From: Roseateles sp. SL47
Lineage (GTDB): Bacteria; Pseudomonadota; Gammaproteobacteria; Burkholderiales; Burkholderiaceae_C
Assembly (NCBI RefSeq): GCF_026625885.1
Contig: NZ_CP113068.1
Location: 6,262,001-6,326,000 of the forward strand
DNA: 64,000 nt
Reading direction: 5' to 3'
In this document: positions 3,333 through 9,755 of the stretch, one piece after another
Layout of the letters: every line of letters begins with the position of its first letter
Numbering within the stretch: position 1 is the stretch's first letter
Made by a program: the position numbers and the translations under genes
The notes under the pieces: generated by a model
What the model saw: only the letters and a program-made list of their open reading frames with translations
Told to the model about the DNA's origin: nothing
Databases searched by the model: none

Positions 3333-4271
3333 ATGAGCGGACCCCAGCTGCTGCCACTCAAGCCGATCCCGATCAAAGAGCGGCTTTCAATCATCTTCAT
3401 TGAGCGAGGCGAAATTGATGTCATTGACGGGGCCTTCGTCGTAGTCGATTGCATGGGCGAACGTGTGCGGCCCGTGTTGACGCATGTGCCGATCGGCGGA
3501 GTGGCTTGCATCATGCTGGAGCCTGGGACGCGGGTTTCCCATCGCGCTGCGGCGCTTGCCGCGCGGGTTGGAACTCTTCTCGTTTGGGTTGGTGAGGCCG
3601 GTGTTCGCCTGTATTCGTCTGGCCAGCCAGGGGGCGCTCGGTCGGATCGGCTGCTTTACCAAGCCAAGTTGGCGCTCGACGATGACCTTCGGCTGAAAGT
3701 GGTGCGGAAGATGTATTCGATGCGCTTCGGCGAGGAGTCGCCACAGCGTCGGAGCGTGGAGCAACTTCGGGGCATTGAGGGCGCGAGGGTGAAACGTACC
3801 TACCAGTTGCTTGCCCACCAGTTTGGCGTGAAGTGGAAGGGCCGGGATTACAACCCCGAAACCTGGGATGCCTCTGATTTGCCAAATCGTTGCCTGTCAG
3901 CGGCCACGGCTTGCCTTTATGGCGTCACGGAGGCGGCGGTGCTTGCCGCTGGATACGCTCCTGCGGTTGGGTTCATACACACAGGCAAGCCCTTGTCCTT
4001 TGTGTATGACGTCGCAGACATTTACAAGTTCGAGTCGGTGGTGCCACTTGCCTTCAAGATTGCTGCCAGCAATCCCCCCAACCCAGACCGCGCGGTGCGG
4101 CTGGCCTGCAGGGATGTGTTCAGGCAGACCAAGCTCCTCGAACGGATCATTCCCGATATCGAGGAAATCTTGTCGGCAGGTGAAATCAAGCCGCCCGAAC
4201 CGACTCCGGAGTCGATTCCACCGGCATTGCCCAACGCGGAGGGCATGGGCGATGCTGGTCATCGTTCTTGA
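3333..4271 (+). CDS. cas1: Cas1e, CRISPR spacer integrase
   Basis: Encodes 312 residues (E. coli Cas1 has 305). With Cas2 it forms the integrase that inserts new spacers at the leader-proximal repeat. The active-site residues are visible: Glu149 (RGIEGARVK), His216 (GFIHTGKP) and Asp226/Asp229 (VYDVADIYK). The segment [15 protein letters not shown] is characteristic of type I-E Cas1. Its last 20 bases overlap the start of cas2e (ATG 4252). The protein itself is intact, but its partner is interrupted by a transposon. Confidence 0.97.
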
Positions 4272-4451
4272 AAATGCGCCGCCAAGGCTTCGAGGCCGCA
4301 TGGCCGTCTGGCTGCTCGAGGTTCGCGCTGGTGTCTACGTCGGAAATTACTCGCGCAAGATGCGCGAACACATTTGGCAGCACGTCATCGAGGGGCTTGA
4401 GGATGGCAACGCAGTGTTGATCTGGCGCGCAACCAACGAGTCGGGTTTTGA
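4252..4451 (+). pseudogene. cas2: Cas2e, 5' part interrupted by an IS21-family element
   Basis: Codons 1-66 are native Cas2e: [20 protein letters not shown], then [20 protein letters not shown] and the strand ending ATNESGF, all typical of type I-E Cas2. At base 4452 the reading frame enters the left end of an IS21-family element and continues with 45 foreign residues (Arg/Pro-rich) to a stop at 4585-4587. The missing C-terminus is present at 9671-9755. Joining 4451 to 9671 gives a 94-residue Cas2e, the same length as E. coli Cas2. The lost part includes the C-terminal strand that contacts Cas1 in E. coli, so spacer acquisition is probably disabled. Confidence 0.95.
4444..4451. repeat. Target-site duplication of the IS21-family element (left copy)
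   Basis: The 8-bp sequence ggttttga occurs here directly before the element and again at 9663-9670 directly after it. It lies inside the cas2e coding sequence. Confidence 0.93.
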
Positions 4452-4489
4452 TGCGTATTTCAGCCCATCGCGGCCACCCATTTCAGCGG

Positions 4490-4552
4490 AACGCGGACAG
4501 CGTTTCAGACGAAGGCGGCCACCATTTCAGGCTGAACGCGGACAGCGTTTCA
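4490..4552. repeat. Subterminal direct repeats of the IS21-family left end
   Basis: The 18-bp sequence aacgcggacagcgtttca occurs exactly at 4490-4507 and 4535-4552. Each copy is preceded by catttcag. The inverted core recurs near the right end at 9607-9621. These are probably transposase-binding sites. Confidence 0.75.
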
Positions 4553-4625
4553 ATCTGATCCCGGACACCCCGGGCGCGCGCAAGTGACCTGAGCCGTTGG
4601 CATGCTGACCGATTTTTCGGTCCTC

Positions 4626-5049
4626 ATGCCCACCCCCAGGATTCACATGCGCCAACTACGTCAAACCCTTCGACTGCACCTGGAATCGGGCCTGAGCATG
4701 CGCGAGTGCTCGCGCGTTCTGGGCATCGCCAAGACGACCGTCAACAGCATCGTCATGAAGGCCCGCGCCGCCAGAGTGGATTGGGCCATCGCTCAGACCT
4801 TGGACGATGCTGCCCTGGAAGCCCGCCTGTACGGCCCGCCCGTGCCGCGTGCGAGCACCCAGCTCGAACCCGACTTCGCCCTCGTCCACCAGGAACTCAA
4901 GCGCCCCGGCGTCACCCTGCAACTGCTCTGGGAGGAGTACCAGCGCAGCCTGGCCGACGCCGGCTCGCAAGCCTACAAGTACACCAGCTTCTGCGTGAAG
5001 TACCGTACCTGGGTGACCGGCCTCAAGCGCTCGATGCGCCAGGTCCACC
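4626..5049 (+). pseudogene. istA: IstA transposase, N-terminal part (interrupted by IS66-family element)
   Basis: The frame encodes an IstA N-terminus. It has a helix-turn-helix (LRQTLRLHLESGLSMRECSR, then VLGIAKTTVNSIV, about residues 5-40). After that comes the family segment LKRPGVTLQLLWEEYQRS, then FCVKYRTWVTGLKRSMRQVH. I chose ATG 4626 (MPTPRIHM) over 4602 because IstA proteins usually start this way. The coding sequence is cut at 5049 by the IS66-family element, and a chimeric frame runs to a stop at 5073-5075. The rest of the gene is at 7612-8738, in the same frame once the insert and one target duplication are removed. Confidence 0.93.
5042..5049. repeat. Target-site duplication of the IS66-family element (left copy)
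   Basis: The 8-bp sequence ggtccacc occurs here and again at 7604-7611, flanking the element exactly. Eight base pairs is the usual IS66 duplication length. Confidence 0.95.
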
Positions 5050-5127
5050 GTATGCGTCCGCCGAAGTCACCTTGAAGTCCGGTGACCGGAGTTGGATGCT
5101 TGTGTCCACGACCAAATTCGTGGACAT

Positions 5128-7603: not shown

Positions 7604-7611
7604 GGTCCACC
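7604..7611. repeat. Target-site duplication of the IS66-family element (right copy)
   Basis: This is the second copy of ggtccacc. Deleting 5050-7611 rejoins the istA codons as ...[18 protein letters not shown] with no frame change. Confidence 0.95.
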
Positions 7612-8738
7612 CAGCCGGCGAGCGTCTGTTCATCGACTACGCCGGCCAGACCGTGCCGCTGATCGACGCTGCCACCGGCGAGATCAGTGCCGCCCAGATC
7701 TTCGTGGCCGTGCTCGGCGCCTCGAACTACACCTTTGCCTGTGCCACCCCGACGCAGACTGCCGCCGACTGGGTCGGTGCCATCATGGACGCACTGGAGT
7801 TCATGGGTGGCGTGCCCCGGCTGATCGTGCCGGACCAGGCTCGGGCCCTGATTGCCCGGCCGGACCGGTACGAAACCACGCCCGGCCGCCTGGTCGAGGA
7901 GTTCTGCGACCACTATGACGTGGCGATGCTGCCGGCTCGGCCCGCTCACCCCCGCGACAAGCCCAAGGTGGAGGTTGGCGTGCAGATCGTCGAGCGCTGG
8001 ATTCTGGCGCGGCTGCGGCATCGACGCTTCTTCACCCTGGCCGAGCTCAACGCCGCCATCCGGGTCTTGCTGGTCGATCTGAACCAACGCCCGTTCAAGA
8101 AGCTGCCCGGCTGCCGGGCCAGCGCCTTCGCGGCCCTGGACCGACCTGTGCTCAAGCCGCTGCCGGCGGCCCGCATGCCCATCGCCCGCTTCAAACGCGC
8201 CCGCGTCAATATCGACTACCACGTCGAGCTCGATGGCCATTACTACAGCGTGCCGCACCGGCTGGTGCGCGAGCAGGTCGAGTTGCGCGTCACCTCGACC
8301 ACGGTGGAGATCCTCAGCCGTCAGCAACGCGTGGCCGTGCACGCCTACAGCGAGCGGCGTGGCGCCCACACGACGGCACCGGAGCACATGCCCGCTTCGC
8401 ACCGCGCCCACCGGGAATGGACGCCGGCCAAGCTCCTGGCCTGGGGGGAGCGCATCGGCGAGGCCACTGCCGCCGTGGTGCGCTGGCAGATGGAGCACCG
8501 GCCGCACCCCGAGCAGGGCTACCGATCCTGCCTCGGCCTGCAGAGCTTGGCGCGGCGATTCGGCCATGAGCGGCTGGAAGCGGCCTGCGTTCGCGCCATG
8601 GCGATCCGCTCACCGACCTATCAGAGCATCAAGTCGATCCTCACCACCGGGCTGGACCGGCAAGCCGCGTCGGCTCCAGCCACACAAGCCGCCCTGCCGC
8701 TGCACGACAACGTGCGCGGCCCCGATTACTACCATTGA
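7612..8738 (+). pseudogene. istA: IstA transposase, C-terminal part
   Basis: This is the downstream remainder of istA, in frame with 4626-5049 after removal of the IS66-family element. It holds most of the DDE core. [16 protein letters not shown] carries the first catalytic Asp, [12 protein letters not shown] the second region, and [16 protein letters not shown] the Glu. The C-terminal beta domain follows ([20 protein letters not shown]). The TGA stop at 8736-8738 overlaps a possible TTG start of istB. The rejoined protein would be about 516 residues, a normal IstA length. As it stands this segment has no start of its own. Confidence 0.93.
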
Positions 8739-8752
8739 AGAAGGAGAAGCTC

Positions 8753-9490
8753 TTGCTCAACGAACATACCCTGGATCAACTGCGCGGCCTGCGCCTGGAC
8801 GGCATGGTGAACGCGCTGGCCGATGACGCCATACGCACGGCGGCGGCCGAGTTGTCCTTCGAGGAGCGGCTGGCCATGTTGGTGCAGCGCGAGGTTGACT
8901 GGCGCGACGGCAAACGCCTGGCCCGGCTGCTCAAGGCCGCCAAACTCAAGGTCAGCAGCGCCTGCATCGAGGACATCAACTGGCGCGGCTCGCGCGGCCT
9001 GGATCGCAGCCTCATCACCCAACTGGCGGGCTGCGACTGGCTGCGCCACGGCCACAACGTGCTGCTCACCGGGGCCACCGGTTGCGGCAAGACCTGGCTG
9101 GCATGCGCACTGGCTCAGCAGGCGGCTCGCCAGGGATTCGCCGTGCTGTACACACGGGCGCCTCGCTTGCTGGAGGAACTCCGGGTCGCGCACGGCGATG
9201 GTTCCTTCAGCCGGCGCCTGGCGCAACTGGCGCGCATCGACTTGTTGGTCATTGATGACTTCGCCATTGCGCCGATCACGGCGGCCGACCGCAACGACCT
9301 GCTGGAGCTGCTCGACGACCGGGTCGGCAGCCGCTCGACTCTCATCACCAGCCAGTTGCCGGTCTCCAGCTGGCACGAGTGGCTGGACGATCCGACCCTG
9401 GCTGACGCCATCCTCGACCGCATCGTTCACTCGGCCCACAAGATCGCGCTCAAAGGCGAGTCGCTGCGCAAGAAACAGGACCCGGCATGA
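8753..9490 (+). CDS. istB: IstB, AAA+ helper ATPase of IS21
   Basis: Encodes 245 residues with the IstB/DnaC-like fold. The family opening is [17 protein letters not shown]. The Walker A motif GATGCGKT lies at about 107-114, and the Walker B region is [12 protein letters not shown]. IstB loads on target DNA and activates IstA. I chose TTG 8753 because aaggag lies seven bases upstream. A TTG at 8735 overlapping the istA stop is an alternative. The gene is intact, although its partner istA is interrupted. Confidence 0.92.
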
Positions 9491-9662
9491 GCATCAAACC
9501 GACCAACCCAAGGCCGTCCACGCCAGCCCGGTTCAGGCTGATCGCGGACACCTGAGCTACCATCAACCCAGGCACTTGCGCGCGCCCAAACTGTCCGCGA
9601 TCAGTTTGAAACGCTGTCCGCCATCACGCTGAAATGACTGTCCGGGATCGCTGAAATCCGCA

Positions 9663-9670
9663 GGTTTTGA
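9663..9670. repeat. Target-site duplication of the IS21-family element (right copy)
   Basis: This is the second copy of ggttttga, directly after the element end (gctgaaatccgca) and directly before the cas2e remainder. Confidence 0.93.
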
Positions 9671-9755
9671 TTTCAAAACTGCTGGTAAAAATCGTCGAAC
9701 CCCAGTCGAGTTTGACGGAATTCAGCTCGTGAGCTTCTTTCCTGAAGCTCGCTGA
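9671..9755 (+). pseudogene. cas2: Cas2e, 3' remainder displaced by the transposon
   Basis: Joined to base 4451 this segment completes codon 67 and reads [17 protein letters not shown], then [11 protein letters not shown] and TGA at 9753-9755. [18 protein letters not shown] aligns with the E. coli Cas2 ending NRRTPVDLDGLRLVSFLPV. This shows that the gene was intact before the insertion. The fragment has no start codon and now lies between the transposon and the CRISPR leader. Confidence 0.95.

Follow-up and report, generated by a model that had tools for sequence, protein, structure and literature searches.

Among the nearest described counterparts of the locus analysed here is the type I-E CRISPR-Cas system of Escherichia coli. 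The locus lies in a 64-kb stretch of the Roseateles sp. SL47 genome (the window, meaning the whole stretch of DNA that was analysed), which forms part of a single-contig genome of 6,388,479 bp. It shares with the E. coli system the cas gene order through cas1-cas2-array, a 29-bp repeat, spacers of mostly 32 bp and an AAG protospacer-adjacent motif (PAM), and differs from it in having a longer array and a cas2e gene broken by nested insertion sequence (IS) elements. That CRISPR function can be lost in lysogens whose prophages are imperfectly matched was reportedly described by Rollie et al. in 2020. In the available text of PMC6990116, both Cas1 and Cas2 are required for spacer acquisition. Natural IS insertions into cas genes amount to 163 cases from 20 IS families and 57 genera in the accessible part of Sheng et al. 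2023 (PMC10359306), and type I-F lysogens of Pseudomonas aeruginosa that lost a spacer, cas5, cas7, cas8 or the whole region are described in the portion of PMC11406979 at hand.

Disruption of cas2e

The cas2e gene is present as two pieces that lie on either side of the IS elements, as listed below.

4252..4587, + strand: 5′ piece of cas2e (67 codons), continuing into the IS as a fusion frame of 111 amino acids
9671..9755, + strand: 3′ remnant of cas2e with the stop codon, matching PF09707 positions 63-86

The gene overlaps the end of cas1e, beginning at 4252, and the break leaves the first 67 of its 94 codons; in the fusion frame, 44 IS-encoded codons replace the last 27 Cas2e residues to give the total of 111. 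On the 5′ piece the Cas2e profile PF09707 matches positions 1-68 of 86 only. The preliminary description of this DNA had proposed that joining the two sides at the empty site restores a Cas2e of 94 codons, and the rebuilt site does encode a 94-residue Cas2e. The gene is indeed broken as it stands, with the profile split in two pieces and the conserved Cas2e C-terminus lost: an alignment of 66 cas2e genes gives the C-terminal consensus f.TlG.nRR.p.d.DG..LVsF.p, which is missing from the fusion. A second cas2e elsewhere, which the same description had set as a case against its own reading, was sought across the one-contig genome and rejected; at an E-value of 0.001 there was no PF09707 match beyond the two cas2e pieces and no match to a Cas2 of the PF09827 type.

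Interruption of this gene is rare among related loci. A full cas2e starts within 290 bp of the cas1e match, mostly overlapping it, at 66 of 68 related cas1e loci, the remaining two having one partial cas2e match and none, respectively. Across the order, a Cas2e match was found in 35 of 399 genomes; in the 34 other than the host it is unbroken over at least 84 profile positions in 33, and in one it is split across two overlapping frames. Within the genus, three of 16 genomes have a PF09707 match, which is unbroken in the two besides the host. Since acquisition needs both Cas1 and Cas2 (PMC6990116, available text) and Cas2e is broken, a loss of acquisition is likely, and the Cas1-Cas2 integrase is very probably non-working, with both naive and primed acquisition switched off.

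The nested IS21 and IS66 elements

The following features make up the insertion.

4444..4451, no strand: left copy of the target duplication GGTTTTGA, by sequence inspection
9663..9670, no strand: right copy of the target duplication GGTTTTGA, by sequence inspection
4452..9662, + strand: IS21-family element with an IS66-family element nested in it, from profiles, ends and duplication
4602..5049, + strand: 5′ piece of istA, NF033546 positions 1-113, in frame 4602-5072
5050..7603, + strand: IS66-family element of 2554 bp, from profiles and its own 8-bp duplication
7604..8738, + strand: 3′ piece of istA, NF033546 positions 111-294
8735..9490, + strand: istB, NF038214 above cut-off

The outer element spans 5211 bp and has the ends TGCG...CGCA; these ends and the 8-bp duplication around them were found where the preliminary description had placed them. 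Target duplications in the IS21 family are 4-8 bp long, and the element belongs to this family by its istA (NF033546) and istB (NF038214) matches, its TG...CA ends and its 8-bp duplication. Of four other IS21 copies measured in the genome, three have duplications of 8, 7 and 6 bp and the fourth has none. The nested transposon that the description had proposed is an IS66-family element inside istA, which is flanked by an 8-bp duplication of its own, GGTCCACC, at 5042-5049 and 7604-7611, and which encodes proteins of the TnpA, TnpB and IS66 transposase types; it matches NF033819 and NF033517 above cut-off, with the TnpA-type NF047595 scoring just under its cut-off (73.3 vs 74). Two given 8-bp sequences agree by chance in about one case in 65,000 (4^8), and the two nested duplications, each with the expected IS family, leave little doubt of two transposition events, one of an IS21-family and one of an IS66-family element. 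The cas genes have thereby been shifted 5.2 kb further from the array, in line with the claim that the element parts them; the leader is uncut and lies wholly on the array side.

Five other IS21 copies occur in the genome, all without an IS66 insert. Their left parts differ from the copy in cas2e by one substitution and at most two gaps, with one copy aligning only from base 64; in the right part, 2059 bp long, they show 0-3 substitutions and no more than one gap. Three further full copies of IS66 lie elsewhere in the genome, each matching the nested one without a difference along its 2554 bp. Given these near-identical copies elsewhere, both insertions look recent. Most likely IS21 entered first and IS66 second, since a composite moving whole would need transposase supplied in trans and no second IS21/IS66 composite was found in the genome. 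Around one of the IS66 copies (at G000:C1:3171000-3174800), the 20 bases of host sequence on one side are the exact reverse complement of the 20 on the other, an arrangement resembling the outcome of an IS-mediated inversion.

The cas genes, leader and array

The remainder of the type I-E locus within the window is arranged as follows.

258..752, + strand: cse2 (Cascade small subunit), TIGR02548 above cut-off
804..1856, + strand: cas7e, TIGR01869 above cut-off
1860..2579, + strand: cas5e, TIGR01868 above cut-off
2581..3267, + strand: cas6e, TIGR01907 above cut-off
3333..4271, + strand: cas1e, unbroken, TIGR03638 above cut-off
9756..9859, + strand: CRISPR leader of 104 bp, uninterrupted
9860..17007, + strand: CRISPR array of 117 repeats and 116 spacers

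The cas3 and cas8e genes lie directly upstream of these, the window holding only the end of cas8e. All eight type I-E genes (cas3, cas8e, cse2, cas7, cas5, cas6e, cas1e and cas2e) are matched by profiles, cas2e as two pieces only, and both domain models of Cas3 pass their cut-offs. The matches uphold the earlier statement that the strain keeps Cascade and Cas6e, and extend it to Cas3. Judged by sequence, the interference genes (Cas3, Cascade and Cas6e), Cas1e, the leader and the array look whole, and a whole-genome search found cas1e at 3333-4271 to be the sole cas1. The Cas1e protein is 83-85% identical to records from Aromatoleum, Zoogloea and Thauera and only about 73% identical to those of two congeners, so the type I-E locus may have been acquired horizontally.

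Among the 116 spacers 115 are distinct, the identical pair being spacers 71 (14190-14222) and 78 (14620-14652), which lie seven units apart. Two of the 117 repeats are deviant, both at the last base. One of them, repeat 32, ends in C, and the first 21 nt of the 53-nt "spacer" after it duplicate the end of the repeat (11757-11838), a unit that has the appearance of a malformed acquisition or recombination. The array ends at 17007 with a perfect repeat and without worn trailer repeats. In related loci with a full cas2e, a repeat lies within 400 bp downstream in 61 of 66, and the leaders are 77-91 bp long in the 22 that were printed. The present leader contains a perfect 13-bp inverted repeat with a 3-nt loop (9793-9821), and several related leaders have a CCATG...CATGG inverted repeat of different sequence at a similar place. 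The insertion may, as the preliminary description suggested, also have interrupted transcription from the cas operon into the leader, although the leader lies entirely on the array side; consensus scans of 9480-9900 found no promoter or terminator. Downstream of the array is a frame of 105 amino acids (17281-17598) followed by one of 151 amino acids (17583-18038), which we take, by eye, to resemble a toxin and immunity pair.

A resident prophage matched by the array

The spacers match a prophage of the host itself. This element of about 50 kb (G000:C1:2700302-2750404) lies between the two copies of a 64-bp duplication, into which the 3′ portion of a tRNA-Ser gene falls. It carries integrase, portal, head and tail genes, and has a PHROG family in nine of ten proteins; no Rfam match was found near the right attachment site. 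With the attachment duplication, the phage genes and seven sites matched by the host's own array at no more than 7 mismatches, it is an integrated, self-targeted prophage. Four of the seven sites stand behind AAG, namely those of spacers 87, 101, 11 and 111, with 3, 4, 6 and 6 mismatches, respectively. The mismatches of spacer 101 fall at positions 9, 10, 12 and 18, leaving positions 1-8 fully matched, and those of spacer 87 at positions 5, 11 and 18. Spacer 43 has a perfect match with the flank TAGCC and no AAG, and spacers 42 and 64, likewise without AAG, have 7 mismatches each. Over the prophage, 100 shuffled spacer sets gave a mean of 0.02 sites and a maximum of 1 against the seven observed, and reversed spacers gave a single site, at 7 mismatches, over a 75-kb stretch. 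No comparable site was found in the 24.6 kb past the right end of the prophage, nor any with 7 or fewer mismatches in the window outside the array.

In the genome-wide screen, 40 of 59 candidates were scored and 20 of the 32 weak BLAST matches outside the array and prophage were fetched; among these 20, self sites were rejected, the best full-spacer match having 8 mismatches and none carrying AAG. In G001 and G009, the two congeners with cas2e retained, no self sites comparable to those of the host were found. Against the host prophage, no spacer of G001 has a site with 7 or fewer mismatches and one of the 24 spacers of G009, a genome in about 80 contigs, has a site with 6 mismatches and no AAG.

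Repeat 43 (12451-12511) ends in C rather than G, and the flank TAGCC of the spacer 43 protospacer has a C at the corresponding place, common to the host prophage and its relative (below); the last base of this repeat may thus have been copied from the protospacer flank.

In E. coli type I-E, mismatched targets can prime, and off-target binding as such is inert, according to the available text of PMC5904413. If this guide carries over to the host species, the spacer 43 self site should be inert, and the sites of spacers 101 and 87 are credible targets or primers. The persistence of the prophage despite such targets points to interference that is weak, quiet or inhibited. Escape mutation of the prophage was considered and rejected; around four protospacers the host prophage and its L121/L122 relative share 81-94% identity, from which the mismatches appear to reflect ordinary divergence.

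Matches in congeners, viruses and plasmids

The array was compared with 16 genomes of the genus; as 18 candidates were scored in each, the counts are lower bounds. All 27 listed places outside the host genome and outside the G001 and G009 arrays were retrieved, and each was scored along the whole spacer length. Of these 27, 17 have 6 or fewer mismatches, in five genomes (G005, G010, G012, G014 and G015), none of which has a PF09707 match; the remaining ten have at least 7 mismatches or no scored site. AAG stands directly 5′ of 14 of these 17 sites, as befits the type I-E PAM, including that of spacer 114 in G010, which is matched perfectly. On G010:C35, G012:C13 and G015:C2, spacer 101 matches (1-3 mismatches, with AAG) more closely than in the host's own prophage, and spacer 4 does likewise on two of the three. 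Judging from these closer matches, G010, G012 and G015, which are without cas2e, probably hold the same prophage family.

Among 82 viral loci (1.35 Mb), six matches had 7 or fewer mismatches, all on IMG/VR contig 2831895361, a relative of the host prophage; they represent five distinct sites, one of them seen in two overlapping loci, and belong to spacers 4, 43, 87, 101 and 111. Reversed spacers gave no match with 7 or fewer mismatches in the same 1.35 Mb. The matches on G015 contig 2 coincide at a constant offset with this viral contig, and the spacer 4 region of the prophage relative has no aligned counterpart in the host prophage. Six records of sequenced phages were matched, mostly through weak repeat-like or short matches; the short ones are 89-90% identical over about 35 bases, and two lie in terminase genes. 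The best-ranked plasmid matches are long, 65-68% identical and spread over several places, the pattern that other CRISPR arrays would be expected to give.

Origin and consequences of the insertion

An IS21-family element transposed into cas2e and has an IS66-family element within its istA, and the stored spacers would still be usable with the intact interference genes. The simplest account of this event is chance: two IS families are active in the genome, a copy happened to land in cas2e, and the loss would have been tolerated by a cell whose CRISPR system is quiet or seldom called upon; we put its prospects at about even. In its favour, each IS type is present in several nearly identical copies, the available text of PMC10359306 records IS insertions into many cas genes, and a prophage carrying credible targets has persisted, which points to weak or quiet interference. 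However, only one of the eight cas genes has been struck, the array is hardly worn (2/117 repeats deviant), and cas2e is rarely broken in relatives.

Whether the insertion was incidental in this way or was selected by a hazard is undecided. With Cas2e intact, the self sites in the prophage could feed primed acquisition against the host's own chromosome, a route that loss of Cas2e would also remove. In the selected case, the imperfectly matched prophage would have made primed acquisition an autoimmune hazard, and the knock-out of cas2e would have stopped priming and preserved interference against other phages, an explanation that we hold tentatively and consider less probable than chance. Four self sites behind AAG with 3-6 mismatches, that of spacer 101 being mismatch-free in positions 1-8, argue for it, as do priming from mismatched targets in E. 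coli (PMC5904413, available text) and the lack of a comparable self site in the cas2e-keeping G001 and G009. However, removal of Cas2e leaves Cas3 acting at the same sites, so that tolerance needs a further cause; the P. aeruginosa lysogens in the available text of PMC11406979 kept cas1 and cas2 unless the whole region was lost, the other losses being of a spacer or of interference genes; the prophage may have entered either before or after the IS insertion; the comparison covers three genomes, with G009 contributing 24 spacers from its fragmented assembly; and the self-site mismatches look like ordinary divergence. It is conceivable, though somewhat doubtful, that the lysogen gave up adaptation rather than interference: with an array aimed at the temperate phages of its own genus, a diverged resident member of the family would, through its PAM-flanked imperfect matches, be a permanent priming template, and cells that had lost Cas2e while retaining Cascade, Cas3 and the entire spacer library would be favoured.

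An anti-CRISPR encoded by the prophage could also silence Cascade, making self-targeting harmless and the cas2e insertion unrelated to it. The prophage does persist despite an AAG-flanked spacer 101 target with a full match in positions 1-8, but no acr or aca family was found among the NCBIfam and Pfam matches of 38 small prophage frames, a search that novel families would escape, and we judge this explanation improbable.

A few points weigh against the reading in which the integrase is inactive and the library closed. The structure model of the fusion keeps the ferredoxin-like core, with strands to residue 71, and IS-encoded residues complete the strand at 66-71; the solved structures nearest to Cas2e are E. 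coli Cas2 chains, and the PDB holds one of 78 residues. Residual function of the fusion, with its predicted core kept, is thus possible. That it still partners Cas1e and that acquisition continues is nevertheless very unlikely, as the conserved C-terminal consensus is lost and the IS-encoded tail is predicted to be disordered (pLDDT below 50 at residues 75-106 and 108-111). On the interference side, the long Cas3 model NF007248 scores 487, below its curated cut-off of 569. The array may also be older or younger than the insertion; the earlier reading, that the immune record was frozen when the element inserted, is a candidate only, the comparison being limited to one strain of the species.

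Misjoining of repeat copies within cas2e during assembly, for which the multi-copy nature of both elements might speak, can be set aside given the single-contig genome, the clean 8-bp duplications at both nested insertions and the absence of the nested IS66 from all five other IS21 copies.

Comparison with known systems

The locus is a natural knock-out of one gene, apparently recent, in a type I-E system that is otherwise whole; the same strain holds a large spacer library with little wear and a resident prophage that this library partly recognises. The case allows a test of whether priming against the cell's own chromosome, as opposed to cleavage of it, is a cost that breaks CRISPR systems in lysogens, and it cautions that a full set of cas genes next to a long array with unworn repeats is no guarantee of ongoing adaptation. 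No paper linking an IS in cas2e to a self-matching prophage appeared among the titles and abstracts surveyed, which is no proof of absence. With the cases in the available text of Sheng et al. 2023 (PMC10359306), the locus shares an IS with target duplication disrupting a cas gene in a natural genome; it differs in that the adaptation gene cas2e alone is hit, by an IS21 element with a nested IS66, in a host whose prophage is matched by the array, and neither IS21 nor IS66 is named in the main text of that paper. With the lysogens in the available text of PMC11406979, it shares damage to the CRISPR-cas locus and a prophage that type I spacers of the host itself match imperfectly, whereas here cas2e alone is affected, by an IS and in type I-E, and the causal link to the prophage is a candidate only. 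IS insertion into a cas gene is therefore of a published kind, and what is new is the context, in which the adaptation gene alone is disrupted in a strain with a self-matched prophage.

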